Below are positions 2,148 through 22,470 of a stretch of 23,328 nt of DNA, one piece after another. Positions within the stretch are counted from its first letter, which is position 1. Each line of letters begins with the position of its first letter. The DNA comes from a virus. The notes beneath the pieces are model-generated. The model searched no databases, was not told the DNA's origin, and worked only from the letters and a program-made list of their open reading frames with translations. A program made the position numbers and the translations under genes. Where the stretch lies: positions 1 through 23,328 of IMG/VR virus record IMGVR_UViG_3300027896_002287, one strand, 5' to 3'.

Positions 2148-2156
2148 TATATATAA
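2148..2156 (-). promoter_or_regulatory. Putative late-type promoter element TTATATATA
   Basis: Read on the minus strand, TTATATATA ends 4 bases before the ATG of the endonuclease at 2143. A second copy, TAATATATA (2169-2177, minus), lies 25 bases upstream of the ATG. It belongs to a set of near-identical elements in front of most transcription units in the window. Confidence 0.4.
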
Positions 2157-2206
2157 AATAATTATTTCTATATATTATTATTTTATATAAGGAAGAATTA
2201 TAAAAA

Positions 2207-2215
2207 TTATATATA
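2207..2215 (+). promoter_or_regulatory. Putative late-type promoter element TTATATATA
   Basis: The element lies 7 bases before the ATG at 2223 and 16 before the alternative ATG at 2232. The divergent intergenic region 2144-2222 thus has one such element for each direction and no visible Shine-Dalgarno site. Confidence 0.4.
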
Positions 2216-2222
2216 AAATAAA

Positions 2223-2834
2223 ATGATAATTATGAATAATTTAAACAAAATGGATTGTGAAAAAATAATTGATATAGTTAACGCTGAAATTAATATTAAA
2301 GGTATTAATGGTGATTTATTAAAAATGGAAGTAATAGATAATATTCTAAACAAAGAACCAACTTATGACGACTTCATATATAATTTGGATAAAATTAATG
2401 ATATACCTGAATTAGAAGATGATCAAATTTTAAAATTAAAAGAAAAATTAAAAGAAATTGAATTAAAGTTAAAAAATAAATCTAAACCAAAAACAATCGC
2501 TATTTCTGGTGAGGCGCATAATATTATAAAAAAATATTGTTTGACTATAAATGAAAATATAGGAGAATGGTCGGAAAAAATGCTTATTAATTTAATTTGT
2601 CTTCCGGCAAAATCAGAACAAAAAGTTTATTTAATAGATTATAATACACATTCTGTTGGTGGAAAATTATATCAATGTCACTCTTGGGTAATTGAAAATG
2701 ATATAAATAAATTTTTATATGAAAATAGGCTTAAAGGAGATTTTTATTTGTATTACAAAGAATCAATAAATATTGATCCAACTACATTAGGAGCCAGTAA
2801 TTTTAAAACTAAAATAACTGGATTTTTTGCATAA
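2223..2834 (+). CDS. Unknown phage protein with coiled coil and RHH-like C-terminal motif
   Basis: 203 residues, function not recognised. The N-terminal 65 residues are acidic and helical. Residues 66-90 are a Lys/Glu-rich coiled coil, followed at 88-125 by a strand-helix-helix motif (KTIAIS, then IKKYC, then GEWSEKM). The same motif occurs near the C-terminus of the convergent neighbour at 2871-3464 (PVSVKM, IKKHC, EDWLDM). The shape, a short strand followed by two helices, resembles ribbon-helix-helix DNA-binding domains, but this is inference. A further 70 residues rich in Tyr, Asn and Leu follow. ATG 2223 is chosen because it is the first after the upstream TATA-type element; ATG 2232 is equally possible. 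The gene ends just before a strong bidirectional terminator. Confidence 0.7.
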   Translation: MIIMNNLNKMDCEKIIDIVNAEINIKGINGDLLKMEVIDNILNKEPTYDDFIYNLDKINDIPELEDDQILKLKEKLKEIELKLKNKSKPKTIAISGEAHNIIKKYCLTINENIGEWSEKMLINLICLPAKSEQKVYLIDYNTHSVGGKLYQCHSWVIENDINKFLYENRLKGDFYLYYKESINIDPTTLGASNFKTKITGFFA

Positions 2835-2835
2835 T

Positions 2836-2876
2836 AAATAATTAAAAGCCGCTAATTTAGCGGCTTTTAATTATTT
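2836..2876. terminator. Bidirectional rho-independent terminator
   Basis: A perfect 19-bp stem with a 3-base loop (att): a GC core agccgcta/tagcggct flanked by A-runs on one side and T-runs on the other. It lies between the convergent genes ending at 2834 (+) and 2871 (-), and overlaps the stop codon of the latter. It works as a terminator in both directions. Confidence 0.93.
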
Positions 2877-3464
2877 ATTATATTGTATGTCACCAAATCT
2901 TGTGATTATTCTGTTAACCTCGTTTAAGGCTATCATATCTAACCAATCTTCTATTATAAGATTATGTTCTCTACAGTGCTTCTTGATTTTTTCATAAGTA
3001 AATCCGTCCATTTTTACAGATACTGGTTTGTATTGCTTAATTTTAGCTAACTTACCGGATTTTTCTAACATCTTCTTTAGTTCGATATTTTCAGCAATAA
3101 GTTTCTTCTTCAAATCCTCATCTTCTTTATCCTTAGAAAGTTTTTCTTCAACCTGTAAAAATATACAAGCATCTTCTAAAAATTTCTTGTTGATATTATC
3201 ATTAATAATATTCTTTTCTTCTTCGGTAAGTTCGTCATCTGTATCTTCTACTTTGTCCGATGTATGAACTGTGTCTGCCTTAGCTAAGAATTCATTGATC
3301 TGATCTTCTGTTAAATCTCCTATTCCCTTTACTAAGTTCCATTGTTCTTCTTGTTCTATGATTACTTCAGATGTTGTAATAACATCTTCTAAAATAGGTG
3401 CTTCTAAAATAGGTGTCTTGACCGATTTAGATTTTTTTGCTTTAATTTTATTATCCATTTTCAT
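2871..3464 (-). CDS. Unknown acidic coiled-coil phage protein with RHH-like C-terminal motif
   Basis: 197 residues, not recognised. A Lys-rich start is followed by a Pro/Ile/Leu tandem (PILEAPILED, residues 18-27, from a perfect 15-base DNA repeat). Next come a strongly acidic stretch (70-90) and a coiled coil (100-140). Residues 146-183 share strand-helix-helix residues with the convergent gene 2223-2834: Lys-Pro-Val-Ser-Val, IKKHC, and a Trp followed by Met. Two in-frame start codons exist (ATG at 3464 and 3458); the first is used here. The gene has its own upstream TTATATATA element and a terminator in front, so it is probably a monocistronic unit that ends at the bidirectional hairpin. 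DNA or scaffold binding is possible but unproven. Confidence 0.72.
   Translation of the reverse strand: MKMDNKIKAKKSKSVKTPILEAPILEDVITTSEVIIEQEEQWNLVKGIGDLTEDQINEFLAKADTVHTSDKVEDTDDELTEEEKNIINDNINKKFLEDACIFLQVEEKLSKDKEDEDLKKKLIAENIELKKMLEKSGKLAKIKQYKPVSVKMDGFTYEKIKKHCREHNLIIEDWLDMIALNEVNRIITRFGDIQYNK
3386..3415. repeat. Perfect 15-bp tandem duplication
   Basis: The unit cttctaaaataggtg occurs twice back to back (3386-3400, 3401-3415) inside the gene at 2871-3464, in frame, and doubles a five-residue PILE(A/D) unit of the protein. Confidence 0.9.
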
Positions 3465-3473
3465 GTTTTCTTT

Positions 3474-3482
3474 TATATATAA
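3474..3482 (-). promoter_or_regulatory. Putative late-type promoter element TTATATATA
   Basis: Minus-strand TTATATATA, 9 bases before ATG 3464 and 15 before ATG 3458. It sits directly behind the terminator 3488-3512 in the direction of transcription, so the two together separate the genes 3527-4306 and 2871-3464 into distinct transcription units. Confidence 0.4.
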
Positions 3483-3487
3483 AAAAT

Positions 3488-3512
3488 AAAACCCCTCATT
3501 TAGAGGGGTTTT
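3488..3512 (-). terminator. Rho-independent terminator after 259-residue gene
   Basis: A perfect 10-bp stem aaaacccctc/gaggggtttt with a 5-base loop, followed on the minus strand by a T-rich tract. It lies 15 bases past the stop of the gene at 3527-4306. A T-run on the plus side means it could also act in the other direction. Confidence 0.88.
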
Positions 3513-3526
3513 TTATATTATTAATC

Positions 3527-4306: not shown

Positions 4307-4348
4307 ATTGTTAATTTTAATGTTTTAACTTATATATGCTTATTGTAG

Positions 4349-4378
4349 TTTGTTTTATTTTTTATAAAATAAAACAAA
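4349..4378. repeat. Perfect 13-bp inverted repeat at edge of endonuclease cassette
   Basis: Arms tttgttttatttt and aaaataaaacaaa with loop ttat, lying between the divergent starts at 4306 (-) and 4408 (+). It is A/T-rich with no GC core except one pair, so it is weak as a terminator. It could be a regulatory hairpin or mark the edge of the inserted cassette. Confidence 0.6.
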
Positions 4379-4394
4379 AATGGAGGACAAAAAT

Positions 4395-4403
4395 TAATAT
4401 ATA
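4395..4403 (+). promoter_or_regulatory. Putative late-type promoter element TAATATATA
   Basis: Exact TAATATATA, 4 bases before the ATG at 4408 of the small Zn-finger gene that leads the endonuclease cassette. Confidence 0.45.
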
Positions 4404-4407
4404 TTAT

Positions 4408-4554
4408 ATGAGGAAATGTAAATATAGAAATTGTATCGAAGAAATAAAAGGCAGATCGAATAAGTGTTATTGTGATAATAAATGTCAAAGAAATGAGAAA
4501 AAGTATAGATATAGATTAAAAAATAAATTAAATAATGAGGAGATTAACAAATAA
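4408..4554 (+). CDS. Small Cys-rich putative zinc-finger protein
   Basis: 48 residues. The Cys pattern CKYRNC, then CYCDNKC, followed by a basic RNEKKYRYRLKNK tail, resembles small single zinc-finger proteins of phages and could bind nucleic acid. ATG 4408 is preferred over the in-frame ATG 4336 because the latter would add residues read through a non-coding inverted repeat and because TAATATATA lies 4 bases before 4408. The last 20 bases overlap the start of the endonuclease gene at 4535, so the two are probably co-transcribed and translationally coupled. It may be a cassette passenger or a partner of the endonuclease. I do not know its function. Confidence 0.6.
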   Translation: MRKCKYRNCIEEIKGRSNKCYCDNKCQRNEKKYRYRLKNKLNNEEINK

Positions 4555-5236
4555 GGAATTTATAGAAAAGTCTAAATTAATGCATAGTAATAAATATGAT
4601 TACTCTAGAGTTAGTTATTTGGGTAGTAAAGCAAAGGTTATAATTTTGTGTAAACAACATGGCGCATTTTCGCAAACACCTAATTCACATTTGAAAGGTA
4701 GAAATTGTCCTGAATGTAGTTCGATTAAATCGGCAACTTCTATTTTTATAGAAAGAGCCAATTTCGTTCATAATAAAAAATATGATTATACTGGTATAAC
4801 ATATATAAATGCTAGAACAAAAATTAATATAAAATGTTATATACACGGTGAATTTAAGCAAATTGCTAATAATCATCTGAAAGGGAATGGGTGTCCGATT
4901 TGTAGAAGTTCTAAAGGCGAACTAAAAATAATAAAATTACTGAAAGATAATAATATCGAATATAACCCTCAATATACTTATGAAGATTGTAGGTATAAAA
5001 ATAAACTACCATTTGATTTTTATTTACCTAAATATGGTATATGTATAGAGTATAATGGAGAACAGCATTATCAAATAATAGAAGGTTGGGGAGGTATTGA
5101 AAATTATAATTTAAGAAAATTAAGAGATGAAATAAAAAAAGAATATTGTCGGTTAAACAATATTCCTTTAATAGTTATTTCGTATAAAGAAATCGATAAT
5201 TTACATTTTGGAGATATAATTAGCAATATAATTTAG
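4535..5236 (+). CDS. Homing-endonuclease-like protein: two Zn-finger modules plus Vsr-like nuclease
   Basis: 233 residues, clear paralogue of the gene at 1172-2143. Two finger modules (about residues 9-61 and 71-123) carry YDYS/YDYT, C-x2-HG-x-F-x-Q and CPxC signatures; a third, present in the paralogue, is missing. The nuclease domain (127-220) has KGE, FDFYLPKYGICIEYNG (D161, E172), QH at 177-178 and ends in VISYKE. By family knowledge (EDxHD nucleases such as I-Bth0305I) this is a likely free-standing homing endonuclease acting on phage DNA. The ATG lies inside the preceding small gene (20-base overlap). Its 3' end overlaps the end of the minus-strand gene 5201-5341 by 36 bases, the same convergent arrangement as the other endonuclease. 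It interrupts an otherwise minus-strand block. Confidence 0.82.
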   Translation: MRRLTNKEFIEKSKLMHSNKYDYSRVSYLGSKAKVIILCKQHGAFSQTPNSHLKGRNCPECSSIKSATSIFIERANFVHNKKYDYTGITYINARTKINIKCYIHGEFKQIANNHLKGNGCPICRSSKGELKIIKLLKDNNIEYNPQYTYEDCRYKNKLPFDFYLPKYGICIEYNGEQHYQIIEGWGGIENYNLRKLRDEIKKEYCRLNNIPLIVISYKEIDNLHFGDIISNII

Positions 5237-5341
5237 ATATTTTTCTATACATTCAGTTGGATCGAAACTTCCACCAAGTTTGGCTTTTGATTCAGAAATT
5301 TGTTGCCTTTTGAATTCCTCGTAATTTATTAATTTTTCCAT
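5201..5341 (-). CDS. Small gene (46 aa), possibly truncated by endonuclease cassette
   Basis: This short frame fills the gap between the endonuclease and the gene at 5393-5830. It begins MEKLINYEEFKRQQISES, continues KAKLGGSFDPTEC and ends YISKM. Composition is like neighbouring genes, and it has the same orientation and block position as the minus-strand genes on either side of the cassette. The last 36 bases are antisense to the endonuclease's end, so the original C-terminus may have been replaced or shortened. No function is recognised. The start is preceded by an A-rich leader without a clear Shine-Dalgarno site, 51 bases after the stop of the upstream gene. It could also be an intact, naturally small protein. 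Confidence 0.55.
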   Translation of the reverse strand: MEKLINYEEFKRQQISESKAKLGGSFDPTECIEKYLNYIANYISKM

Positions 5342-5392
5342 AGTTATTATTTTTTGTTATTTATTGTATTGTTATGTTCTAGATTAGTTTAC

Positions 5393-5830
5393 TTAGCTAA
5401 TAAAATCATTTTCAAAATCATTACTTACCATCTTTTCTGCGGTGATTTCTGCTAACTGATTAGCCTTAGAGATTTTTTCGATACCGTATTTCTTAATTAA
5501 CGTAGAGAAAGTATTGATGTCGGTCTTGATCAATTTTACCTTTGCGGTTTCGATATTAAAATGAATCTTATCTAGTTCTTGTTCGAATAATATATTAATT
5601 GATTCGTCCTCAAACTTATGTAAAAGCAATTCATTTAGACTAACCAAAATATGTTTATTTAATAGGAACTCATATTGCTCCGATAATTTTGATATTTTAA
5701 TTAAAGTTTTTTGTGTATCGCATCCTATAAACTGGAATGATATTTCGTTAAAACATTTTTGGGAGGCTATCTCCATAAAAATATTTACAGTTTCGTCAGA
5801 AACCTCGTAGAATTTGTTCTCTTTGCTCAT
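5393..5830 (-). CDS. Unknown phage protein (145 aa)
   Basis: The protein is soluble with mixed alpha/beta character and no signal peptide, membrane segment or zinc motif. Blocks that look conserved in style are FQFIGCDTQKTLIKISKLS (about residues 32-50), YEFLLNKHILVSLNE (53-67) and the DKI...TDINTF...KYGIEKISKANQ region (86-124). I do not recognise a named family with confidence. It sits in the minus-strand block downstream of the tape-measure candidate and a small membrane protein, suggesting a role in virion assembly, but this rests on position alone. A partial TATA-type element (GTATATAAT) occurs about 25 bases before the ATG. The start is the first ATG in the frame. Confidence 0.7.
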   Translation of the reverse strand: MSKENKFYEVSDETVNIFMEIASQKCFNEISFQFIGCDTQKTLIKISKLSEQYEFLLNKHILVSLNELLLHKFEDESINILFEQELDKIHFNIETAKVKLIKTDINTFSTLIKKYGIEKISKANQLAEITAEKMVSNDFENDFIS

Positions 5831-5875
5831 TGTTATTGTTTTTGTTTCAAATTATATACAACAATGAAACAAAGT

Positions 5876-6325: not shown

Positions 6326-6341
6326 ATTAATTATATTCTTT

Positions 6342-9227
6342 TTATTGCATATGTTTTTTGTTTTTAATAGAATTATTAGAACCTCTTAATTCATCTATAA
6401 AAGTAACAAATGTATTACAGCTTTTAACCATACTGCCAAGATATATATTAGTTTGTCTCTGTTCCGCTACTAAATCATCAATAGTTGCTCCTCCAGTTGT
6501 AGCAGAACCATTCTTAACTGAATTTATAGAGCCAAAACTCTTGTTGTTAGCAGCACCAGCACCACCTAATTGATCCATTATATTGACAAATATACCAGTT
6601 TTAGCTTCTAATTCATCCATCATTTTAGTAAATTGATCCTTATCCATTAGTGATAATAATACTACACTACCGCTTAATGTTTTTAATGAATCTAATTTTT
6701 GTAAATCCAATGAATTTATAGAAGTGCTTAATGATTTAACACTTTTACTTAAAGCATCATAACCATTAGCTATTTTAGATAATCCATATGTTATACCAAT
6801 TACATTTAAGAATGATAAAGGTCCAATATCTTTTGCTTGTAAATATTCAACCAAATCTACATAAACTTTAATGTTATCTGACATAGATTTCATATATCCT
6901 TCAGGGATTGAATTACCAAAACTACCTTTATTAAGCACATTTGCTGAATCAACCATTGCACCTGCAATGGAAACTATTGCATTATTTATTGCTGAGAAAT
7001 CATCATTTCCATACCAATGACTATTTTTATCTAAATAATCAAATACAGGTGCAAATGCTGATAATGCTCCACTTATACCTGCTGACCAATCAGCAGTTGG
7101 TCCACCTGTCCAAATATTAGGGACTGACATGAAGAATTTACCAACTTGAACTATAGCTGATGATATATTAAGCATAGCTTTTATCATATCTTCCGGGGCA
7201 GGTCCGCTTCCAAATAATCCGGAAGATTTAGCTAAAGCATCAAATACAGGCGCAAATGCCCCTATTGCACCACCAACTCCTGCTGCCCATTCTGCTGTAG
7301 GTCCACCAGTCCATATATTAGGAACTGACATAAAAAATTTACCCGCTGTAACAATACCACTTGACACAGTTGTTATAGCATCTGCGAAATCTTGTGCAGA
7401 TGGTCCCTTAGAAAATAATCCAATTATACCTCTATCAAACAAAGTTTTAAATACAGGCGCAAATGCTCCTAATGCTAATGATATACCTTCCGCCCATTCT
7501 TTTGTTGGACCACCACTATATGTTCCTTTGCCTAATATTGCGGAAGCATCTACAATAGATTGTGCTATAACAAGAACACCTAATGCTCCGGCTGCTAAGA
7601 CAGCCAATCCTAATCCAAATGATCCTACTATAAATGCACCCAACATCATAGTTCCCACACCAAATGCTGCAAGTGATAATGAAACTCCAGTTGACCAAGC
7701 TAATGTAGGATAATTACCATAACTACCAGCGCCTAATATATAAGATGCCGCTACTATAACACCAGAAAGAATCAATACAGCGGCTCCTCCAGCTAATAAG
7801 GCTACTGCGCCTATGCCTGACATTGCTATAATACCAAGTACAACAGCAGATAATCCAAACGCAACTAAACTTAGTCCTACACCAGCAGCCCATTCTAATG
7901 TCGGATAATTATCATATTTGCCTAAAGCAATTAATTGTGATGATAATGCAAGAACACCAGCTAATATAACAATAGCAATGCTACCTTCGGCGATAGCTTC
8001 TAAACCAATTTTAGCTAATACCCATGCTGTACCACCCATTATTACTGATGATATTCCTAATGCTAAAGACATAATAACCATATTACCCAATATTCCCGCA
8101 TCCACTGGGACTACCATTTGTAATGCCCATGATGATACTGCAATAGCTAATGCTAATAGTGGTAATATTGCAGTCATTAGTAGCGCATCTTTAATTGATG
8201 TGGTTTTAACTGCAAGTGCTAAAGAAGGTAATGCTAAAGACATTACAGCTAGCGTTGCGGCGATTATAATAGCTGTTAAGCCCTGATTAAATGAAATAGG
8301 TACTATGAGTGCCATAATCCAGGATGATGCTGTAATTGCTAAAGCAAATGCTACTAAAACGAGTGGCATTTTTGTCATATCTTTAGGCTCTATATTTTTG
8401 ATCCCATTAGCTATTTTTTCTATACCATATGCCATTACAGTAAATGTAGCTGCTATTAATATAGCTGTTAATCCTTGCCATATTGATATTGGTAGTATTA
8501 ACCCCATGATCCAAGATGATGCGGTAATAGCTACTGCCACTGACACTAGAACAAACGGCATTTTTTTGATAGCTTCTGGTTTGATTTTCTCAAATCCGGA
8601 TGCCATTTTTTCTATATTGAATGATATTGCTGCAAATGTGGCAGCTATTAATATGGAAGTTATTCCTTGTTTTATTGATATTGGATGTACTAAACTTAAT
8701 ATCCACGAAGCTGCTGCAATAGATGCTGCCATAGTTACGACAACGAAAAATAGATTTTTCATTTCGGCTGGCTTCAAACCTTTCATTTCAGATATTTTAA
8801 CAAAAGCCATTGCTACTAACGGCAAAGCTACGGATAAGGCTATTACCGAAAGGAAATCAACAGTGCCTATTAATTTAAATGCTAATCCTATAGCTAATAC
8901 ACCAGCAGCTATTAGTAATACAGTAGAAACTCCTTCTTTGACTTTTTCTTTTTTCTCACCTATATTTTGAAAAAAAGGTGATTGAGATTTCTTTTCTCTA
9001 GAAATATTTAATAAAGTTTCTTGATTCTTTAGTATTTTTTCTGTATCTTTTTTAATAGCAGATAACCCTACTTTAATGGACTCTATTTGTTTGCCAAAAT
9101 TACCACTTTGTAACACTTGTGCAGTATTTGAACTAGCAGTTTTTTTACTTTTAAGAGCATTTGCTAACTCTTCAAGCCCAATAGTTATATCATTCAGTGC
9201 ATTTAATATTTTCTTGTCCATTTTCAT
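6342..9227 (-). CDS. Putative tape measure protein, built of ten ~65-residue hydrophobic repeats
   Basis: 961 residues (959 if ATG 9221 is used). Residues 1-98 are polar and coiled-coil-like. From about 100 to 770 the chain is very rich in Ala, Gly, Ile, Leu and Val. Repeats recur every 64-67 residues, marked by a Ser-Trp-type position at 175, 239, 303, 367, 431, 496, 563, 630, 697 and 762. Early copies read ASSWIM...PIS...QGLTAI; later ones read GGPTAEWAAGVGGAIGAFAP. The C-terminal 190 residues are polar. Length, hydrophobicity, repeats and location beside the sheath fit a tape measure protein, which sets tail length and may enter the host envelope. An integral membrane protein is the alternative. 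TAATATATA overlaps the first ATG, so if that element is the promoter the ATG at 9221 is the real start. Confidence 0.65.
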   Translation of the reverse strand: MKMDKKILNALNDITIGLEELANALKSKKTASSNTAQVLQSGNFGKQIESIKVGLSAIKKDTEKILKNQETLLNISREKKSQSPFFQNIGEKKEKVKEGVSTVLLIAAGVLAIGLAFKLIGTVDFLSVIALSVALPLVAMAFVKISEMKGLKPAEMKNLFFVVVTMAASIAAASWILSLVHPISIKQGITSILIAATFAAISFNIEKMASGFEKIKPEAIKKMPFVLVSVAVAITASSWIMGLILPISIWQGLTAILIAATFTVMAYGIEKIANGIKNIEPKDMTKMPLVLVAFALAITASSWIMALIVPISFNQGLTAIIIAATLAVMSLALPSLALAVKTTSIKDALLMTAILPLLALAIAVSSWALQMVVPVDAGILGNMVIMSLALGISSVIMGGTAWVLAKIGLEAIAEGSIAIVILAGVLALSSQLIALGKYDNYPTLEWAAGVGLSLVAFGLSAVVLGIIAMSGIGAVALLAGGAAVLILSGVIVAASYILGAGSYGNYPTLAWSTGVSLSLAAFGVGTMMLGAFIVGSFGLGLAVLAAGALGVLVIAQSIVDASAILGKGTYSGGPTKEWAEGISLALGAFAPVFKTLFDRGIIGLFSKGPSAQDFADAITTVSSGIVTAGKFFMSVPNIWTGGPTAEWAAGVGGAIGAFAPVFDALAKSSGLFGSGPAPEDMIKAMLNISSAIVQVGKFFMSVPNIWTGGPTADWSAGISGALSAFAPVFDYLDKNSHWYGNDDFSAINNAIVSIAGAMVDSANVLNKGSFGNSIPEGYMKSMSDNIKVYVDLVEYLQAKDIGPLSFLNVIGITYGLSKIANGYDALSKSVKSLSTSINSLDLQKLDSLKTLSGSVVLLSLMDKDQFTKMMDELEAKTGIFVNIMDQLGGAGAANNKSFGSINSVKNGSATTGGATIDDLVAEQRQTNIYLGSMVKSCNTFVTFIDELRGSNNSIKNKKHMQ

Positions 9228-9235
9228 ATATATTA
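9227..9235 (-). promoter_or_regulatory. Putative late-type promoter element TAATATATA
   Basis: Exact minus-strand TAATATATA. Its last base is the A of the ATG at 9227, and the next in-frame ATG (9221) lies 5 bases after it, the same spacing as at the fibre gene. This argues that translation starts at 9221. Confidence 0.45.
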
Positions 9236-9275: not shown

Positions 9276-9284
9276 TAATATATA
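9276..9284 (+). promoter_or_regulatory. Putative late-type promoter element TAATATATA
   Basis: Exact plus-strand TAATATATA, 21 bases before the ATG at 9306, in the 78-base divergent region between the tape-measure candidate and the three-gene plus-strand operon. Confidence 0.45.
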
Positions 9285-14363: not shown

Positions 14364-14372
14364 TATATATTA
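14364..14372 (-). promoter_or_regulatory. Putative late-type promoter element TAATATATA for sheath gene
   Basis: Exact minus-strand TAATATATA in the 70-base gap between the coiled-coil gene and the sheath gene, 27 bases before the sheath ATG. This would let the sheath be expressed separately from the two genes upstream. Confidence 0.42.
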
Positions 14373-14406: not shown

Positions 14407-15000
14407 TTACTGTGTTGGTGGTGTATCGAGTTTTGTTATACGTTTTTTGGAAGTTTGTAAAGCTGTAACTCTATTTTTCATTTCATCAGCGGAAGCCTTT
14501 TGTAGGTTAGCTATTTCCTTTTTAATTGCTGTAAGATTATCAAGCTGTGCCTTCATATCATTATTTGCCGTTTCAATATCTGTGTTGGCAGAAGTAACAT
14601 CACCTGTTCCTGCAGCTACCTCGGATTGTTTATTAGCAATATCTTGTTTTTTCTGTGATAGCGTGGTATTAGCATTTTTCAGTTGTCTATTCTTTTTGCA
14701 TATTTCACCCCATATATTAAATAACGGGTTGAAAAAAACTAATTTAGATTTGACATTAGATGGTTTAATAAATTTAGCGGCAACTAACTTATTATAAAGA
14801 TCAACAGGTGTAGATTCTTCCGAAGGTGTGACATCATCCTTGTAAGTCATGTAAATATTTGCTAAAATACCTTTTCTTGTATTAAAATCCTTAACCCATT
14901 TTTCTGTATCATTAAAAGAAGTCATATCGGATGCCACTTCTACTGGTGGATTTTCTTTTTTAATATCAAATGCCTCGTTAAACCTTTTTATGTATTTCAT
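14407..15000 (-). CDS. Coiled-coil protein with CTS-like N-terminus
   Basis: 197 residues. It starts MKYIKRFNEAFD, close in pattern to the T4 capsid-targeting propeptide, with a possible prohead-protease cut after Glu9 (FNE, then Ala). The middle (residues 45-100) is mixed; residues 100-190 form a long Lys/Asn/Gln/Ala coiled coil with no aromatics. The gene overlaps the stop of the 809-residue J-domain gene by one base (TAATG), so translation is probably coupled and the two products may act together. Its neighbour carries a similar VNEAF sequence near its own start. No family is recognised; an internal head protein or a tail assembly helper are both possible. Confidence 0.68.
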   Translation of the reverse strand: MKYIKRFNEAFDIKKENPPVEVASDMTSFNDTEKWVKDFNTRKGILANIYMTYKDDVTPSEESTPVDLYNKLVAAKFIKPSNVKSKLVFFNPLFNIWGEICKKNRQLKNANTTLSQKKQDIANKQSEVAAGTGDVTSANTDIETANNDMKAQLDNLTAIKKEIANLQKASADEMKNRVTALQTSKKRITKLDTPPTQ

Positions 15001-17429
15001 TATCTAATTGTTAAAGTTGTGTTTTTTAATGCAGTTTCTAATTCACTAAATACAGTAGCTATATTAGGAATTCTAATATCCTGCTCTACTATAGTTTTAT
15101 CTAATTTATCCAAATCTGGGCTTATAATAGGCGTGTATGTACCCTTTTCATCTTTTTTAGAAAGAATATACATAGCACCTACCTTAACTCTAGCTGTACC
15201 TTTTCTCTGAGGTGTATATACATTCTCATTTGGAATTTCTGTAAGTTTATTTATATCTCTGCTAACCATTATGAATTCTTTTGTTTCATTTAATGGAGTT
15301 TTGCCTAAATCTATCAATCCTATATTAACAGGTGTATTAGATTTAGTTCCTGCTAATACTGGTTGATATTTTATGCCACAATATGCGACAGGGATTGATT
15401 CATTATCATTCTGCCATTTAAGTAGTATTTTTTTATCCTGTTTCATTATTATTTCACAAATAAACTTTCTATCCTTAGTTTTCTGTTCTTTTTTACTGAA
15501 ATAATTACAATGTATAGCTATAAATTCTCCGACATTTGTGTTGCTTTCATCTATCGGCGAAACTTCTCTCCAATCTACATTTCCTGTTGCAACTATTGCA
15601 TCTGGTTTCTTACCACCACCGCCATCAGAAGGTACTTTACCCGCAGCAGACTCTAATCCAAAATACTTAGTGAGTAATGCAGATCTATTTTTATCGTAAC
15701 TATGTAATGTATTTTCATCTATCATATTTCTGATAAATTCTAACAAAACATTACCTGGTTGATTAGGTTTACCATCAGACCTTTTGATAACTCCATTATT
15801 AAATACTTTTTTTAATTCTTCTCTTTCGATAAAACTAGCAATTTCTTCCGAGAATTTATTGAAAACCAGTTTAGATACCCATGGTCCATAACCAGGTCCT
15901 TCTTCTTTGCCTGGTACCTTAGCATCTCCCTTACCCACATAAATATATTCTCTGTATGTAGAATTAGAGATTTTACCACCTGGTCTACCAGATGGTATTA
16001 TAGGTACTGTATATAATTTATAAGCTTTTCCGAAAAGATTGGCTATTTTGATTATTCTATCTTTAGCGTGTTCACCACTTTTATCAACTAAATCAATTTG
16101 AAATTTAGCTTTTTCGAACTTTTGTTGTTCTTTTTTAGATTCCTCTTTACTAACTTCCCATTCTTTATGTTCACCTTCCTTAAAATTGCGATCCCATACT
16201 TTCTTAACACTATCCTTAGTATTATCTTCTTCGTCCGTAATATCAGTAGATATAGTTTTGCCTTTTTCTTCGGGTGGAGTATGTGTAATATTAGCATGTT
16301 CAGTTGGTTCCACTGCTGGTACCACTTCATCAGCCTCATTTATAGACATGAAATCGGAATAACTTAATAATATATTTAAGGATTCATAAATCTCTTTCAA
16401 TTTCTTATTATATTTAATTGAAATGTCTTTGAATTTTTCAATATCGGCAGTATCACCACCTGTATCAGGGTGATATTTTTTGCTTAATTTTCTATAAGTA
16501 TTTTTTAACTCTTGTCTATTTGTACATCCCTTAAAGTAATCTTCGCCTTTTTCTTCAGGTTTAGCTTTAGTCCTTCTTTGGTATTTTTTACCATTATGTG
16601 TAAATGTATCTCCTCTATCATCATCGCCACTACCATCACCAGTAGGTTCTTCTTCTGTTTTTGGTTCTTCTGTTTTTGGTTCTTCAGTCTTTGGCTCTTC
16701 ATTAGGCTCTTCACCTTTGGTTCCCACTTCTTTAGATCCTTCTATTCCCAATTTTTTGTCTTGTTCAGCTTGACCTTGTGCAGCTCCAGCTTGACCTTGT
16801 GCAGCTCCAGCTTGACCTTGTGCAGCTCCAGCTTGACCTTGTGCAGCTCCGGCTTGACCTTGGCTTTGTGTTGATCCTATCTGTGCTTGTGCGCCAGTTC
16901 CTAGTTCTTTATCTTCGTCTGCTTTAAGTCTTTTCTTCTTATCTTCCTCTGATTCTGTTGGTAAAACAATAGCTTTAAGTTCTTCCTTAAATTTTTCTAA
17001 TTTGCTTATAAGAGTTTTTTTATCACCGGCACCCAATTGAACATCATCTGATAATATTTTAATGAAAGCTAGCGCCTCATCTATCAATCCTTTAGCTTCG
17101 CCTTGTCCAACAAGGTGTTCAATTTTTTGCCTATCTGATGTTTCTGTTTCGTGAACTGTTTTATAAATTTCTTCCAATAAAAATTTGGCAGTTATATTAG
17201 TTATTGTTGCTTGATCTTCTGGACTCATACCTTTTGCTACTAAAGCCATTAATTCCTTTTCAATAGCTTTGGCTATTGAACCAACTCTAGCATAGTTGAT
17301 GCCTATTTTGGCTTCTCTAATTACAGAATTTACTAATCTACCTAAAAGTGAACCACCCCAAGTAATATCATTTACAAATGCCTCGTTAACAGTGCCTAAA
17401 AAAGCTGCTCTAGTGTTTATATACCTCAT
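15000..17429 (-). CDS. Large phage protein with a central DnaJ-type J-domain
   Basis: 809 residues. Residues 1-20 contain VNEAF (possible prohead cleavage after Glu16). Residues 20-160 are helical. A disordered region follows: Ala/Gly/Gln heptads (GQAGAAQ, about 190-222) and Glu-rich PKTEE pentads (245-262). Residues about 296-350 are a J-domain with YFKGCTNRQELKNTYRKLSK and the diagnostic HPD at 320-322, which in DnaJ proteins stimulates Hsp70 (DnaK) ATPase. A second INEAD motif (363-367) follows. The C-terminal half (400-809) is globular, Lys/Glu-rich and unrecognised. It could recruit host DnaK during head or tail assembly, or be a head-internal protein. It is coupled to the next gene by TAATG. 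TAATATATA lies 20 bases before the ATG. Confidence 0.78.
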   Translation of the reverse strand: MRYINTRAAFLGTVNEAFVNDITWGGSLLGRLVNSVIREAKIGINYARVGSIAKAIEKELMALVAKGMSPEDQATITNITAKFLLEEIYKTVHETETSDRQKIEHLVGQGEAKGLIDEALAFIKILSDDVQLGAGDKKTLISKLEKFKEELKAIVLPTESEEDKKKRLKADEDKELGTGAQAQIGSTQSQGQAGAAQGQAGAAQGQAGAAQGQAGAAQGQAEQDKKLGIEGSKEVGTKGEEPNEEPKTEEPKTEEPKTEEEPTGDGSGDDDRGDTFTHNGKKYQRRTKAKPEEKGEDYFKGCTNRQELKNTYRKLSKKYHPDTGGDTADIEKFKDISIKYNKKLKEIYESLNILLSYSDFMSINEADEVVPAVEPTEHANITHTPPEEKGKTISTDITDEEDNTKDSVKKVWDRNFKEGEHKEWEVSKEESKKEQQKFEKAKFQIDLVDKSGEHAKDRIIKIANLFGKAYKLYTVPIIPSGRPGGKISNSTYREYIYVGKGDAKVPGKEEGPGYGPWVSKLVFNKFSEEIASFIEREELKKVFNNGVIKRSDGKPNQPGNVLLEFIRNMIDENTLHSYDKNRSALLTKYFGLESAAGKVPSDGGGGKKPDAIVATGNVDWREVSPIDESNTNVGEFIAIHCNYFSKKEQKTKDRKFICEIIMKQDKKILLKWQNDNESIPVAYCGIKYQPVLAGTKSNTPVNIGLIDLGKTPLNETKEFIMVSRDINKLTEIPNENVYTPQRKGTARVKVGAMYILSKKDEKGTYTPIISPDLDKLDKTIVEQDIRIPNIATVFSELETALKNTTLTIR
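16645..16695. repeat. 15-bp repeats encoding PKTEE units
   Basis: Approximate in-frame copies of ggttcttctgttttt (with variants such as ggttcttcagtcttt) encode the Pro-Lys-Thr-Glu-Glu series in the disordered linker before the J-domain. Confidence 0.75.
16768..16862. repeat. 21-bp minisatellite encoding GQAGAAQ heptads
   Basis: Four full copies of a 21-base unit (starting gcttgaccttgtgcag) lie at 16768, 16789, 16810 and 16831, differing at one base (last base of copy 4), followed by an 11-base partial copy. All are in frame within the 809-residue gene. Near identity suggests recent expansion and probable copy-number variation. Confidence 0.93.
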
Positions 17430-17449: not shown

Positions 17450-17458
17450 TATATATTA
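17450..17458 (-). promoter_or_regulatory. Putative late-type promoter element TAATATATA for J-domain operon
   Basis: Exact minus-strand TAATATATA, 20 bases before the ATG at 17429, in the 125-base divergent region 17430-17554 that also holds the plus-strand element at 17526. Confidence 0.45.
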
Positions 17459-17525: not shown

Positions 17526-17534
17526 CAATATATA
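17526..17534 (+). promoter_or_regulatory. Putative late-type promoter element CAATATATA
   Basis: One-base variant of the common element, 20 bases before the ATG at 17555 and mirroring the minus-strand copy at 17450-17458, which has the same 20-base spacing to its own gene. Confidence 0.4.
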
Positions 17535-17554
17535 CTTTATAATAAAAATTTATT

Positions 17555-17839
17555 ATGAGATTCAAACAATTCAAAGTAGGAGATAGGATTATCAACAATC
17601 ATATCGAAGTCGATAACATTTTACTAAAGAATAATCTAGGTTGGCTATGTGATGCCGAGATCGAAAATGCAGACATCGAAGTCAAAAATAAAACAATCAT
17701 ATGGAATAACGGAATTTTTTATGCTGGGCACTGGGTGTATGGTATATGGAAAGACGGTTTCTTTCATGGTGTATGGGATAACGGCATATGGGAGGGTGGT
17801 AATTTCAACGGTACTTGGAAGAGTGGTATTAAAAAGTAA
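17555..17839 (+). CDS. Small Trp/Gly repeat protein
   Basis: 94 residues. The N-terminal half is ordinary (MRFKQFKVGDRIINNHIEV). From about residue 48 there is a regular pattern of alternating Trp/Phe and Gly: IWNNGIFYAGHW, YGIWKDGFFHGVW, DNGIWEGGNFNGTW. Each half-unit of about five residues has the form W/F-x2-G. This is a beta-strand ladder repeat, somewhat like MORN or pentapeptide repeats, and probably folds as a small solenoid or sheet that binds a surface or partner. Small proteins of this look occur in phages, but I know no assigned role. It has its own upstream element, and the next gene follows after 38 bases. Confidence 0.72.
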   Translation: MRFKQFKVGDRIINNHIEVDNILLKNNLGWLCDAEIENADIEVKNKTIIWNNGIFYAGHWVYGIWKDGFFHGVWDNGIWEGGNFNGTWKSGIKK

Positions 17840-17877
17840 ACAATCCGAAAGGATATAAAAAAAAACACGCTTTTTTT

Positions 17878-18336: not shown

Positions 18337-18372
18337 AAAGAAAGACCTACTGAAAAGTGGGTCATTTTCTTT
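18336..18372 (+). terminator. Rho-independent terminator with GAAA tetraloop
   Basis: The stem gacctact/agtgggtc (one G-T pair) is closed by a gaaa loop at 18344-18363. It extends outward through aaaagaaa/ttttcttt with one bulge and ends in a T-rich tract. It follows the stop at 18336 and is directly followed by TAATATATA at 18373. Confidence 0.85.
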
Positions 18373-18381
18373 TAATATATA
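18373..18381 (+). promoter_or_regulatory. Putative late-type promoter element TAATATATA
   Basis: Exact element, beginning at the end of the terminator tract and ending 4 bases before the ATG at 18386. The terminator, element and start codon are packed into 50 bases. Confidence 0.5.
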
Positions 18382-18385
18382 CAAT

Positions 18386-18601
18386 ATGGAAAATAGAAGT
18401 ATTTGTAAAAACGCATGGTGCAGAGCATCATATGTATTTGAGGGAGATATACCACCGGGTGAATGTCCTAAATGTGGTAGTTTTCACAAAGATACATCAG
18501 GTGGTGTATCTTGGACAGACCAATGGAGAACTTATAATGAACCAAGATATGATTCTAAAGAATTAGGTAGTGCGTGTCAAATAAAAACAAGAGGATTATA
18601 A
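18386..18601 (+). CDS. Small zinc-ribbon protein
   Basis: 71 residues. Cys7 and Cys12 (CKNAWC) pair with Cys27 and Cys30 (CPKC) in the order of a zinc ribbon or rubredoxin-like knuckle, with IPPGECPKCGSF forming the second knuckle. The C-terminal part is Trp/Tyr/Asp-rich and polar. No specific function is recognised; small zinc ribbons of this type often bind nucleic acid or proteins. The start is fixed by the close upstream element; no Shine-Dalgarno site is visible. The next gene follows after 4 bases, so they form a two-gene unit. Confidence 0.72.
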   Translation: MENRSICKNAWCRASYVFEGDIPPGECPKCGSFHKDTSGGVSWTDQWRTYNEPRYDSKELGSACQIKTRGL

Positions 18602-18605
18602 TAAA

Positions 18606-19451
18606 ATGATAGGACATATATTCGATATTGATGTTTTGATAACAATCGATTCAAAACCTTGGGTTATTGATAAGAATAACCCCAATATTCCTTTGCTTAA
18701 ATTGAATAAATCAGATTTCAATCTGATTAAAAATGGTGTATATAAAAGTCAAGGTAATAAATTAGAATACAATGGTAAAATATTTTGGTTACCTAATGTA
18801 TTATTTAATAAAATAAAAGTTATTGCTAAGAATAAGAAAATTAGTATTGCGGATATAGCTATATCTATGCAGGAATTCTTAAATAAGGATATTATAGAAA
18901 ACATTAAATATGATATTAACTATGAGGCTATTTCGCATTTAAAGAATAAGAGTGATGATGTTTATTTAATATGTTCTATTAATACAGAGAGAAATTATAA
19001 GATAATGATTGATAGGTTATTAGAAAAATTGGCAGATGAAGGTATTTTAATTAAGAAATTCTATTATTTGAATGAGACATTTTATAATGGCGCTAATGAT
19101 AATGTTATATTCAAAAAAGGAACAATATGTTTACAGCATTTGGTTGGCTATGAAATTAAAAATGAAGTTTTTATTGATAAACCAACAAATAAATATTCTA
19201 AATTATATTTCTATGATGATGATTTTGATACATTAAAAATGACAAGTGAAATTAATTCATTTTTAAGGACAATTCTATTAAAAACTGAATTGGGTTTAAG
19301 AGAAGTCGTAAAGGAAGATATTGTTGATGATAAGGCAATTCTTGTTGTAAATAAAATCGCTAGTAATAAATATAATAAATTTATTACTAGCGAAGTTAAA
19401 TTGTCTTTATCTAATGTTAAAAAGTTTGAAAACTTTAAACCTAAGATTTAG
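18606..19451 (+). CDS. HAD-superfamily-like protein (putative phosphatase)
   Basis: 281 residues. The N-terminal FDIDVLIT (residues 6-13) has the D-x-D of HAD motif I, where the first Asp is the nucleophile. The usual DxDxT/V pattern is kept only loosely. LICSINTERNY (about 121-131) fits motif II (hydrophobic strand then Ser/Thr), and LYFYDDDFDTL (about 200-210) fits the acidic motif IV. A 30-90 insertion rich in Lys and Asn could be the cap. If active it would hydrolyse a phosphate ester; the substrate is unknown, and phage HAD proteins include 5' nucleic-acid phosphatases. It starts 4 bases after the zinc-ribbon gene. Its stop overlaps the convergent gene by 11 bases. Confidence 0.55.
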   Translation: MIGHIFDIDVLITIDSKPWVIDKNNPNIPLLKLNKSDFNLIKNGVYKSQGNKLEYNGKIFWLPNVLFNKIKVIAKNKKISIADIAISMQEFLNKDIIENIKYDINYEAISHLKNKSDDVYLICSINTERNYKIMIDRLLEKLADEGILIKKFYYLNETFYNGANDNVIFKKGTICLQHLVGYEIKNEVFIDKPTNKYSKLYFYDDDFDTLKMTSEINSFLRTILLKTELGLREVVKEDIVDDKAILVVNKIASNKYNKFITSEVKLSLSNVKKFENFKPKI

Positions 19452-19456
19452 GTTTA
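19436..19456. terminator. Short hairpin spanning both convergent stop codons
   Basis: Perfect 9-bp stem taaacctaa/ttaggttta with loop gat. It contains the TAG of the HAD-like gene (19449-19451) and, on the other strand, the TAG of the gene at 19441. It is AT-rich with two GC pairs and no long T-tract, so it is at best a weak bidirectional terminator. Confidence 0.5.
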
Positions 19457-20070
19457 TCCTTATCCTTATTTTTTAAAGCATTAGAAATCATGTCATTTAA
19501 TTTTCTTGAATCCATTATTGTCCCAGCATCTGAATCTGTTTCTTTATCTTTATCTTCTATTACTACTTTTACTTCAACCTCATTAATTCCAAGATCTTTT
19601 CTTATATCTTTATAGAATTTTTCAATATCCGTTTTTTGTGTATTAGAGAATTTAATATTCTCACGCATTTGTCCCATGGTTTGATTAAGAACTTCGTACT
19701 CTCTAGCACCATTACTACCATTATCTATTGCTCTCATTTGAGATATAAAAGTTTTTCTAGTCATCTTAGTTAAGAATAGCGTTTCTGCGTAAACTAATGC
19801 GTCTTCCTGCACTTTATTTTTAATATAAGGGTGTTCTATAACACTGGGTACATCACCTAAAAATAGGTCTACAAGTGAGCCTAATACATTACTGGCTCTT
19901 TCCCTTACTTCTTCAATATCTGAATCATAATTATATATTTGTATATCACCAAGTTCCGGTAGATCATCTACTTTAGCCAGATACATATTAACATCTAAAT
20001 CTTTATTTTCTTCTTGAATTTTATTAAATTCCTCTTGAAGACTATTTATTTTTTCATTTTTCTTTTCCAT
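19441..20070 (-). CDS. Unknown protein next to terminase; candidate small terminase subunit
   Basis: 209 residues from ATG 20070, chosen because the product then begins MEKKNEKINS after an A-rich leader. The ATG at 20100 would add ten residues and a longer overlap with the upstream gene. It is acidic and helical: a coiled coil (1-30), the motif AKVDDLPELGDIQIYNYD (about 32-49), a helical core (50-150) and a charged C-terminus with KNKDKDKPKS. The same motif occurs in the small upstream gene 20054-20245. Size, helical content and location opposite TerL suggest a small terminase subunit, which recognises DNA and regulates TerL, but no helix-turn-helix is obvious and orientation is divergent. 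The function is inferred and weak. Confidence 0.62.
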   Translation of the reverse strand: MEKKNEKINSLQEEFNKIQEENKDLDVNMYLAKVDDLPELGDIQIYNYDSDIEEVRERASNVLGSLVDLFLGDVPSVIEHPYIKNKVQEDALVYAETLFLTKMTRKTFISQMRAIDNGSNGAREYEVLNQTMGQMRENIKFSNTQKTDIEKFYKDIRKDLGINEVEVKVVIEDKDKETDSDAGTIMDSRKLNDMISNALKNKDKDKPKS

Positions 20071-20245
20071 ATTTATTTTTTTGTTTTTCCAAATAATCAT
20101 CTATACTTTTTTTAAGCCTGGATTTTTGGTAATCATATATTTCTACTTCGCCAAGTTTTGGAAGATCCTCCACTTTACTCGTTTGGTATGATTCTGTGTC
20201 GAAAATCCTTTGTCCATTGGTTCTATCTGATTTTGTATATTGCAT
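20054..20245 (-). CDS. Small protein sharing a motif with its downstream neighbour
   Basis: 63 residues. Residues 24-38 (KVEDLPKLGEVEIYDY) match KVDDLPELGDIQIYNY of the adjacent gene at 10 of 16 positions. DNA similarity extends over about 49 bases (20129-20177 against 19927-19975), so one arose from the other by duplication. The N-terminus is polar (MQYTKSDRTNGQRIFD), and the C-terminus is a charged helix (LKKSIDDYLEKQKNKYGKEK). It may be an N-terminal remnant of a duplicated gene or a working small partner. It lies 21 bases after the minus-strand copy of the promoter-like element and overlaps the next start by 17 bases. Confidence 0.6.
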   Translation of the reverse strand: MQYTKSDRTNGQRIFDTESYQTSKVEDLPKLGEVEIYDYQKSRLKKSIDDYLEKQKNKYGKEK

Positions 20246-20263
20246 GGTACACTAGATTATTTA

Positions 20264-20275
20264 TTATATATATTA
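20264..20275. promoter_or_regulatory. Putative bidirectional late-type promoter
   Basis: Overlapping copies of the element on both strands: TTATATATA (20264-20272, +) is 18 bases before the TerL ATG at 20291, and TAATATATA (20275-20267, -) is 21 bases before the ATG at 20245. One 12-base core can serve both directions. Confidence 0.5.
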
Positions 20276-20290
20276 AAATACACAATTCGT

Positions 20291-22447
20291 ATGGCAACAG
20301 CTAGAAAACAAGATGAAGATGATAACAAAAAATTTGTATTCACCTCAAAAAATATAGATGAACTAACCGAGCAGGCAAGTAATGGAGTTATATTAAAAAG
20401 ATACCAAAATCCTTGGTTAAAACAAGAAGTGGGAGTTAGAAGAGCTGGATTAACATTTGTGGGAACAGATGAAGAAACAGAAGAATATTTTAAATGTGCC
20501 TTTGATATACATTATTTTGCGGAAAAATATTGTAAAATTAAAAGAGAAGATGGTTCTATTGGACCAATAAAACTTAGACCATATCAGAAAGATATATTAG
20601 ATTTATTTAAAAGTAATCGTGTGATATTATGTGCGGCAAGACAGTCTGGAAAAACAATCAATGCGGCTATAACAATTTTACACTTTATATTATTTAATAA
20701 TGATAAAAATGTAATGATTGTGGCTAATTTAAGAGATACAACAATTGAAATTATTGATAAGATTAAATCTATCTATGTTCTTTTGCCTTTCTTCTTAAAA
20801 GTAGGTATAAAAATATGGAACCAAAAAACAATAGTTTGTCAAAATGGATGTAAAATAAGAACTGCTGCTAGAAGTAAGACACCCGCAATTGGTTTTGCGA
20901 TAGATTTTCTATATCTAGATGAATTTGCACATATTCCCTCAAATATTATCGGACCTTATTATACCGCTGTGTACCCTACTGTTGCTGCGGTTGAAAATTC
21001 TAAAATAATAATAACATCAACACCTAAAGGAATGAATTTATTTCATAAATTGTTGATAGATGCGCAAAGACCTGAAAGTGATCCATTAAGTACAAACTTC
21101 AAATCAAAAATGATATATTGGTATGAAGTTGAAGGTAGATTCGTAACATATTTTAGATTATATGATAATAAATTATTCCAGGCTCAACCAGAAAGTATAA
21201 CTAAAGAAGAGATATTTGAACAAGTTTCTGCCGCTTTTCCACTTGGTAAAGTAAGTATGGTGTATAATCCGGATCTAGAGAAAGATGTTATAAGTATTTT
21301 TAACGAACATTATACATCAGAGGAAGTGAAGAAATTTATGTTTGTTAAGAATGATAGAGAATATTTCATGCACGAACTAGCATTTGTTACTACATGGAAA
21401 GAGGAAACAATGAAAGAAATCGGTGGTGAAGATGCGTTTAATCAGGAGTTTAATTTAAGATTTGTCGATGGATCCAGATCATTATTAAATGAGGCTTTAA
21501 TTGATGCGTTAATTAAGAATAAAACTGGTTATGTTCATTATCCTTCTTTTGAGTTTGATAGAAGGCTGAGATTCAGCTATGATGATTTACAATTTGTTGA
21601 TGATTTGAATATATATTCACCTTTGGATAGAAATAAAATAAGAGGTATTTATTCTATTGATATATCAGAAGGATTAGGACAAGATTATTCTATAATAAAT
21701 ATATTTAAGATAGTTCCTAAACCAATGGAAGTAATAGAAGCACATAAAAAAGAATTTGTGTTTTTATCAGATTTCTTTTGTTTACAACAATTTGGTATGT
21801 ATAGATCAAATCTTATATCAGTTAAGCAATTAGCAGAATTATTTTATGTATTATCACATGAATATTTTAATCCAGAAAATTTTAAGACAGTATTGGAATA
21901 CAATACTTATGGCGGAGAATTTTTAGCACATTTACCTCACTTATTTGATGGGCACAATGAATACGGTTCAAGTATTTTCTTTAGATATAAACACAGAATA
22001 GATTCAGAAGAAGAAAGAATTGGTATAAAAGTTGGTTCTAATAAAGAGATATTGGTTAAAGATTATCAAGATAATATGAATAAAAAGAATTTTATAATAA
22101 ATAATGTAACTAATATTGATGAGATAACAACTTTTGTTAAACATATAACACCTTCTGGTAATATTAGATATGCTGCTGATACTGGTAATGATGATACAGT
22201 TATGTCAATAGTAAATGCTTCTAGTGTATTTGCTAAATTTGCTTTTAGAGAAATGGTTGAGTCTTATGCGCATGAATTTGCAGATCCTGCCACATTAGCT
22301 TATTTTAATGATATTTTAAAAAATAGAGAATATACTGATATGTTATCGGATTATTCATCTTTATTAAATGTTAGGAAGAATAGATTTATTCCAAATAGAG
22401 ATAATAATAATAATGGGTACAATACTAATAATTGGTACAGTAAATAA
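20291..22447 (+). CDS. terL: Terminase large subunit (TerL), DNA-packaging ATPase and nuclease
   Basis: 718 residues, within the range of myovirus TerL proteins (T4 gp17 is 610). ATPase half: Walker A CAARQSGKT (114-122, Lys121), Walker B FLYLDE (206-211, Asp210 and catalytic Glu211) and coupling motif ITSTPKG (241-247). Nuclease half, RNase H-like: first Asp in YSIDISEG (D457), acidic residue in VLEYNTYGGE (E536) and the third site ADTGNDDTV (D634/D635). All catalytic residues look intact. The protein docks on the portal, pumps DNA into the prohead and cuts concatemers; portal and capsid genes are not in the window. ATG 20291 is chosen over the in-frame ATG 20240: the extra 17 residues would be translated through the promoter-like element, and MATARKQDED is a normal start. 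Confidence 0.96.
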   Translation: MATARKQDEDDNKKFVFTSKNIDELTEQASNGVILKRYQNPWLKQEVGVRRAGLTFVGTDEETEEYFKCAFDIHYFAEKYCKIKREDGSIGPIKLRPYQKDILDLFKSNRVILCAARQSGKTINAAITILHFILFNNDKNVMIVANLRDTTIEIIDKIKSIYVLLPFFLKVGIKIWNQKTIVCQNGCKIRTAARSKTPAIGFAIDFLYLDEFAHIPSNIIGPYYTAVYPTVAAVENSKIIITSTPKGMNLFHKLLIDAQRPESDPLSTNFKSKMIYWYEVEGRFVTYFRLYDNKLFQAQPESITKEEIFEQVSAAFPLGKVSMVYNPDLEKDVISIFNEHYTSEEVKKFMFVKNDREYFMHELAFVTTWKEETMKEIGGEDAFNQEFNLRFVDGSRSLLNEALIDALIKNKTGYVHYPSFEFDRRLRFSYDDLQFVDDLNIYSPLDRNKIRGIYSIDISEGLGQDYSIINIFKIVPKPMEVIEAHKKEFVFLSDFFCLQQFGMYRSNLISVKQLAELFYVLSHEYFNPENFKTVLEYNTYGGEFLAHLPHLFDGHNEYGSSIFFRYKHRIDSEEERIGIKVGSNKEILVKDYQDNMNKKNFIINNVTNIDEITTFVKHITPSGNIRYAADTGNDDTVMSIVNASSVFAKFAFREMVESYAHEFADPATLAYFNDILKNREYTDMLSDYSSLLNVRKNRFIPNRDNNNNGYNTNNWYSK

Positions 22448-22456
22448 TTTTATATT

Positions 22457-22465
22457 TAATATATA
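22457..22465 (+). promoter_or_regulatory. Putative late-type promoter element TAATATATA
   Basis: Exact element, ending 5 bases before the ATG at 22471 of the fibre gene (TAATATATA-ggaat-ATG), in a 23-base gap after the terminase stop. Confidence 0.5.
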
Positions 22466-22470
22466 GGAAT

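Follow-up and report, generated by a model that had tools for sequence, protein, structure and literature searches.

Promoters of the gp55 type and leaderless phage messenger RNAs (mRNAs) are already known, each separately. The late promoters of phage T4 (TATAAATA; gp55, gp33, and gp45) belong to the former, and the middle and late mRNAs of Thermus phage P23-45 are reportedly leaderless. In P23-45, gp39 acts on sigma-A, and the promoters are host sigma-A extended -10 promoters (PMC7403470). Here, we describe an AT-only element, TWATATATA with the main form TAATATATA, in a stretch of 23,328 bases that makes up IMG/VR record IMGVR_UViG_3300027896_002287 in full (hereafter, the window) and is a fragment from a contractile-tailed, T4-type myovirus. 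With a probability of about 0.82, judged from sequence comparisons, we read the element as belonging to gp55-type late promoters, about half of which would give leaderless mRNAs.

In detail, TAATATATA (consensus ~TT[T>A][A>T]ATATATA) would be the -10-like element of a phage-specific, T4 gp55-type late promoter. The host RNA polymerase, together with a small gp55-family phage sigma factor, would open this promoter and start at an A located 4-6 bases past the element. Where an ATG occupies the start position, as at about half of the recognized sites, the mRNA would be leaderless; otherwise, +1 would fall within a triplet rich in A, with the ATG 11-27 nucleotides (nt) on, after an A-rich, Bacteroidota-type leader without a Shine–Dalgarno (SD) sequence. 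Leaders of ~2-10 nt would be avoided.

The likeness to T4 late promoters includes an 8-9-base AT-only element without a -35 box, a gp55-family sigma factor, the probable use of the host RNA polymerase, virion genes among the targets, and a leader peak at similar distances. The differences lie in the consensus, in the half or so of sites here that stand at a short gap (the gap being the number of bases between element and ATG), and in a sigma factor of ~121 amino acids (aa) that lacks a C-terminal clamp-binding tail. An earlier note on the window had drawn the T4 analogy; it holds for the sigma factor, a gp55-family member of which is encoded in relatives, but not for the T4 consensus, which is not enriched. 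Tried as the element, TATAAATA showed no positional preference comparable with that of TAATATATA. In T4 itself, none of 32 TATAAATA promoters stands at gap 4-6 and 18 stand at 15-31; the short-gap class is therefore not general to gp55 promoters.

At the leaderless genes of Actinobacteria, Deinococcus-Thermus, and archaea, a TA-like signal lies ~10 base pairs (bp) 5' of the start (PMC3160421). The sites described here share with them a -10-like box fused to the start codon and the lack of an SD sequence, but the box is a phage-specific candidate late element, and it occurs in phages of Bacteroidota. Leaderless genes were recorded in 1 of 37 Bacteroidetes/Chlorobi genomes (PMC3160421), and 5.5% of Flavobacterium psychrophilum mRNAs are leaderless (PMC9723704). 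The late promoters of phiKZ read TATG, and the leaders of AR9 measure 26-491 nt (PMC5312081). phiKZ resembles our phages in being a giant phage whose short promoter sequence is similar to a start-codon context; unlike phiKZ and AR9, which possess their own multisubunit RNA polymerases, the 14 records searched here yielded no RNA polymerase beta' (PF00623; controls 14/14; single-subunit RNA polymerases were not searched for). With P23-45, the shared trait is the phage-wide leaderless expression of later genes, and the difference is the gp55-type sigma factor proposed here as opposed to host sigma-A.

The window contains a tail sheath gene at 10488-14336 (-), starting at 14336, and the gene for the terminase large subunit (TerL) at 20291-22447 (+). 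The best named TerL relatives, LR745206 (634,780 bases, 59% identity) and LR756502 (642,428 bases, 57%), are both uncultured huge-phage genomes; LR756504 and the 735-kb LR756501 are more distant (~40% identity), and contigs from IMG/VR, among them those that we call G003 and G004, are closer (72-75%). All five genomes above 634 kb are placed in the Mahaphage clade, with Bacteroidetes as predicted hosts (Al-Shayeb et al. 2020, PMC7162821). We infer that LR745206 and LR756502 are Mahaphage genomes (>600 kb) and that the window fragment is close to these. The relatives above 500 kb are all uncultured, and no account of their late-expression timing was found. In the searched literature, from which most subscription journals were missing, we likewise found no report that combines a gp55 promoter with leaderless mRNAs, no promoter analysis of this clade, and nothing on TAATATATA with phage or on gp55 with Bacteroidetes and late promoter.

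Within the window, TWATATATA occurs in 18 copies, compared with 6.15 ± 2.94 in dinucleotide-preserving shuffles, no one of which reached 18. Our main data set consists of the window and nine related genomes (whole or large parts), that is, 2.25 Mb with ~2,955 called genes, in which the core is [T>A][A>T]ATATATA and positions 3-9 of the 9-mer accept almost no substitutions; some seeming duplicates are one palindromic site counted on both strands (TAATGCATA denotes a designed mutant form of TAATATATA). In LR745206, with 191 copies of TAATATATA, there are 145 sense-strand matches within 60 bases 5' of genes, compared with 48 in the antisense orientation. The genome-wide occurrence claimed by the earlier note was borne out, sense-strand elements being enriched 5' of genes in all of the huge-phage relatives examined. 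The element is absent from Tenacibaculum phage PTm1 and Sphingomonas phage PAU, which were rejected as carriers.

The gaps fall into two classes, of which the short one makes up about half of the recognized sites. In called genes, there are 134, 67, and 25 sites at gaps 4, 5, and 6, hardly any at 7-14, and a wide second maximum over 15-31; binned as 4-6, 7-14, and 15-31, the counts are 226, 21, and 243, compared with 3, 6, and 69 in antisense and 2.2, 5.7, and 11.7 after mononucleotide shuffling. Because the choice of start codon could bias gene-based gaps, we also made a start-free count, in which each triplet downstream of 673 TAATATATA copies was scored and an ATG had to head an open reading frame (ORF) of at least 50 codons. 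Over the 2.25 Mb, this gave 147, 78, and 25 ORF-heading ATGs at gaps 4, 5, and 6, a total of 27 at 7-14, and again a second peak at 15-31, while GTG and TTG together numbered 8 at gaps 4-6 as against 250 ATG. The two preferred distances that the earlier note had read from the window thus reappear as a bimodal plot whose valley, at 7-14, is almost empty. The pattern was repeated on additional contigs, being seen at the TerL, sheath, and gp55 neighborhood loci (partly overlapping the main set) and in three more huge-phage records. These counts support a promoter with two conserved predicted output classes, leaderless and leadered by ~11-27 nt.

The class of a gene tends to persist among relatives. 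The spacing class is the same in 422 of 484 orthologue pairs, taken as reciprocal best hits of <85% identity in which each gene has an element of the TAATATATA type; permuting labels within genomes gave 252 ± 11 (maximum 293), a guide and not an exact test, as one gene may recur in several pairs. Judged by this comparison, the spacing classes are under selection. For the gene starting at 18386, almost every relative has the element at gap 4-5, even where identity falls to 39%, and the 9306, sheath, and 17429 genes retain leadered elements; the 9221 gene is short-gap in G003, G004, and a third contig (L044), and leadered in LR745206 with its start codon unchanged.

In LR745206, gene content was compared for each class over its first 25 families. 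Among the products of leadered TAATATATA genes are the tail sheath, portal, major head, head closure, and head decoration proteins, endolysins, and some replication proteins, and virion-related genes with a leadered element include sheath, TerL, portal, capsid, and head closure. The short-gap genes include DNA methyltransferases, RNA ligase, endolysin, baseplate wedge, NUDIX, and DNA polymerase exonuclease. A second motif, TATATTTG, precedes genes for DNA ligase, RNase H, polynucleotide kinase, and ATPases; virion families are absent from its first 25. Because of these contents, the data support late timing for TAATATATA and early timing for TATATTTG, as predicted from gene families.

A candidate for the factor that reads the element is a 121-134-aa protein of the relatives that matches phrog_234, 'late sigma transcription factor', at 1.4e-7 to 8e-10; T4 gp55 is in the same family (2.9e-69), and the 121-aa protein shares with it the N-terminal motif Y(V/L)NNK(E/D)L. 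The family was matched in 12 of 14 records (more weakly in PAU and PTm1), including 10 of 12 huge-phage records, and in 0 of 14 bacterial and archaeal controls; a gp55-like sigma gene, which the earlier note had named as a thing to look for, is hence present in most of the huge-phage records searched, ~9-19 kb downstream of TerL where checked. A sequence search of the Protein Data Bank with this protein returned chance matches only, and its AlphaFold model, at a mean predicted local distance difference test (pLDDT) score of 47, was too poor for use. We infer that the gp55-family protein would read the element, and likewise where +1 would lie and that the genes would be expressed late. Across 80 loci (L176-L255), the gp55-like protein is 88-100% conserved, compared with ~57% for TerL, and has a conserved C-terminal GxHS[LI]; could this motif replace the T4 clamp-binding tail? 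At one of these loci, L218 (~3001-3363), the ORF seemingly has no ATG at the usual start and reads ...LIYLNNKDL, which suggests a non-ATG start codon.

Several observations weigh against gp55-type late promoters. PAU and PTm1 have gp55-family genes and no element, and the 735-kb record W04 has the element and no phrog_234 match. The 121-aa protein is without the clamp-binding tail of T4 gp55, and the T4-type clamp family phrog_223 was matched in 1 of 14 records, weakly. The gp55-family gene lies outside the window; since it lies ~10.7 kb past TerL in the near relative G003, the window is probably too short to reach its own copy. Leaderless-class genes are, furthermore, mostly non-structural or of no assigned function, and this class may include middle rather than late genes.

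The first two of these points also favor the main rival, in which the element is a true promoter read not by gp55 but by a host sigma factor or by another phage one, namely, a longer sigma factor of the extracytoplasmic function (ECF) type; the leaderless geometry would stand. Such an ECF-like protein (phrog_1740, 194-233 aa, region 2 and region 4) is encoded in records W01, W02, W03, and G001. We nevertheless regard this as unlikely, because TAATATATA has no conserved -35 block, unlike promoters of region-4 sigma factors and the TTG...TATATTTG class, and because gp55-family matches are found in 10 of 12 huge-phage records and strong matches to the longer sigma factor were seen only in the larger ones.

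The predicted start rests on base composition. Aligned on the element, TAATATATA sites show strong conservation only at the element itself and the +1 region, with a weak A/T bias elsewhere and no -35 element. At long-gap sites, the proportion of A rises sharply at base +5, counted from the element, and this step is fixed to the element over gap classes 19-28 (0.52 to 0.88, 0.37 to 0.70, 0.48 to 0.76, and 0.33 to 0.70 in gap classes 21-28), being weaker or shifted at 29-32; a further A-rich stretch, roughly -12 to -18, travels with the ATG. Base +5 is also where the ATG stands in the gap-4 class. At short-gap sites, the ATG is preceded by a pyrimidine (T or C) in 81% of cases and by G in 1%, a preference that tracks the ATG across gaps 4, 5, and 6. 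Given this tracking and the coincidence of the A step with the gap-4 ATG, +1 is probably the A of the ATG in the short-gap class and the A at +5 in the long-gap class.

It is conceivable, but in our view improbable, that short-gap sites yield leaders of 1-6 nt or start slightly upstream, so that the mRNAs would not be strictly leaderless. DNA cannot give an exact +1, and the gap varies among 4, 5, and 6; on the other side stand the pyrimidine that follows the ATG over these gaps, the +5 A step falling on the gap-4 ATG, and the near absence of GTG and TTG at gaps 4-6, which is expected if a 5'-terminal AUG is required. The leaderless mRNAs proposed in the earlier note are supported by the sequence tests, with the correction that the predicted +1 is base +5 (gap 4) and does not follow a 5-base gap. 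A -10-like element ~10 bp 5' of the start codon, an AUG start, and the lack of an SD sequence, by which leaderless mRNAs are recognized, were all found. In every class, SD-like motifs stay at background (for the leaderless class, 0.9% vs. a background of 5%), which agrees with the scarcity of SD sites remarked on before. Bacteroidota do not use SD sequences; A at -12/-13 promotes initiation, and upstream signals are A-rich (PMC6847099).

The second motif bears on whether the element acts in transcription at all. TATATTTG is preceded ~20 bases upstream by a TT(T/G)(G)-rich, TTG-like block, and the class fits the Bacteroidota sigma-A pattern (TTG-like -33 block and TAnnTTTG at -7); we take it to be like a primary sigma promoter of Bacteroidota. 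Its gaps to the ATG are also bimodal, with peaks at 3-6 and ~16-31. Since two unrelated motifs show the same two distances, the best explanation is a constraint on how long a leader can be (absent, or no shorter than ~11 nt), and it is unlikely that TAATATATA is a translation signal. An AU-rich ribosome-binding or processing site, in keeping with SD-free, A-rich initiation in Bacteroidota (PMC6847099), would predict one optimum distance rather than two peaks with an empty valley and would not be expected to leave positions 3-9 nearly invariant or to share its distances with a promoter-like motif, so that we give an RNA-level reading very little weight. Chance in AT-rich DNA with biased start-codon choice, for which one might cite the ~30% GC content of the window and the palindromic TATATA, is refuted, as far as sequence statistics go, by the shuffle and antisense controls, the start-free counts, the additional contigs, and the orthologue conservation. 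A search of the window for the sigma-70 consensus stayed at chance level (123 vs. 122.6 ± 10.7).

If gp55-type late promoters are indeed involved, hundreds of genes in uncultured huge phages gain a concrete promoter, a candidate sigma factor, and a predicted start site. Unlike in T4, a gp55-type promoter would be merged with the start codon, and this in phages of a phylum that does not use SD sequences and in which leaderless mRNAs are rare. Because two unrelated promoter motifs share their distances, they offer a natural measure of the leader lengths that the host ribosome accepts, namely, none, or ~11 nt and more. Genes for bS21 and IF3 occur in 8 of 14 and 4 of 14 records, respectively, which suggests a link to translation initiation. 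A more speculative idea, which we hold to be rather doubtful, is that the promoter-ATG distance is a heritable two-state translation dial, in which leadered late genes (capsid, sheath) would use standard Bacteroidota initiation and leaderless genes would need a ribosome state shaped by phage bS21 and IF3; if true, the late sigma factor and the modified ribosome would jointly define a separate gene-expression channel.

All elements listed in the earlier note were found in place, and most of its distances were reproduced. Its short class of 4-5 stands, with the amendment that 4 and not 5 is the dominant gap in relatives. Gap 4 is seen for TTATATATA at 2148-2156 (-), the predicted leaderless element of the HNH endonuclease gene 1172-2143; for TAATATATA at 4395-4403 (+), before an ORF starting at 4408 that at just 48 aa is the weakest gene of the element-bearing set; and for TAATATATA at 18373-18381 (+), predicted to give a leaderless mRNA for a zinc-ribbon-like protein from ATG 18386. 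Gap 5 is seen for TAATATATA at 9227-9235 (-), before the 959-aa gene that ends at 6342, and at 22457-22465 (+), with a predicted leaderless start at ATG 22471. For the former gene, the earlier note had left the start at 9221 or 9227; it is probably 9221, because L044, G003, and G004 begin at the matching codon and have no ATG equivalent to 9227. Start-codon annotation can be improved in this way.

The class at ~18-21 was also verified. TAATATATA at 9276-9284 (+) lies at gap 21 from ATG 9306 and is leadered too in L044, G003, and G004 (70-71% identity); TAATATATA at 17450-17458 (-), at gap 20 from ATG 17429, serves a J-domain protein gene and is present in all relatives listed. CAATATATA at 17526-17534 (+), at gap 20 from ATG 17555, is a weak variant, with A/GAATATATA in relatives. 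TerL has TTATATATA at 20264-20272 (+), at gap 18 from ATG 20291, which is overlapped by the divergent TAATATATA at 20267-20275 (-), at gap 21 from the 63-aa ORF starting at 20245. The noted exception of 27 is confirmed for the sheath gene (TAATATATA, 14364-14372 (-), ATG 14336), which has a leadered element in every relative listed. The other exceptions hold with the ATGs taken before, 7 for TTATATATA at 2207-2215 (+) with ATG 2223 (gene 2223-2834) and 9 for TTATATATA at 3474-3482 (-) with ATG 3464 (gene 2871-3464), but vanish with the next in-frame ATGs, 2232 (gap 16) and 3458 (gap 15), which we offer as possible starts. As a rescue for every exception at gaps 7-14, a second ATG was rejected, as it works in 7 of 51 cases in relatives. 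The matches at 6442-6450 and 7734-7742 are intragenic, as had been stated, with no gene start close by.

Some further features of the window may be recorded. The HNH gene at 1172-2143 (-) and that at 4535-5236 (+) are homing-type endonuclease genes of one family; the former overlaps the 3' end of the opposite-strand gene 3-1271 and bears two stacked elements, the second being TAATATATA at 2169-2177 (-), leadered at gap 25. A terminator-like hairpin at 18344-18363 (+) stands immediately 5' of the 18373 element, such that hairpin, promoter, and start codon are packed into ~45 bases (18344-18381 for the first two); a similar hairpin precedes the element in several relatives, and such hairpins are found at ~6% of leaderless vs. 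~1% of leadered sites. The gene at 22471-23328 with its predicted leaderless promoter encodes a collagen-like repeat protein. Adjoining the sheath gene, 15000-17429 (-) encodes a possible virion or assembly co-chaperone of 809 aa, in which a DnaJ (J) domain (PF00226, 3e-7) is accompanied by GQAGAAQ repeats. A small W/G-repeat protein (NGIWEGGNFNGTW...) is encoded at 17555-17839, and the overlapping ORFs 20054-20245 and 19441-20100 (-) share a repeated segment (KVEDLPKLGEVEIYDY / KVDDLPELGDIQIYNY), an apparent partial tandem duplication. Finally, 5393-5830 (-) encodes a putative phage metallopeptidase (PF18894, 1.7e-5) that is conserved in many relatives and has no obvious late element.

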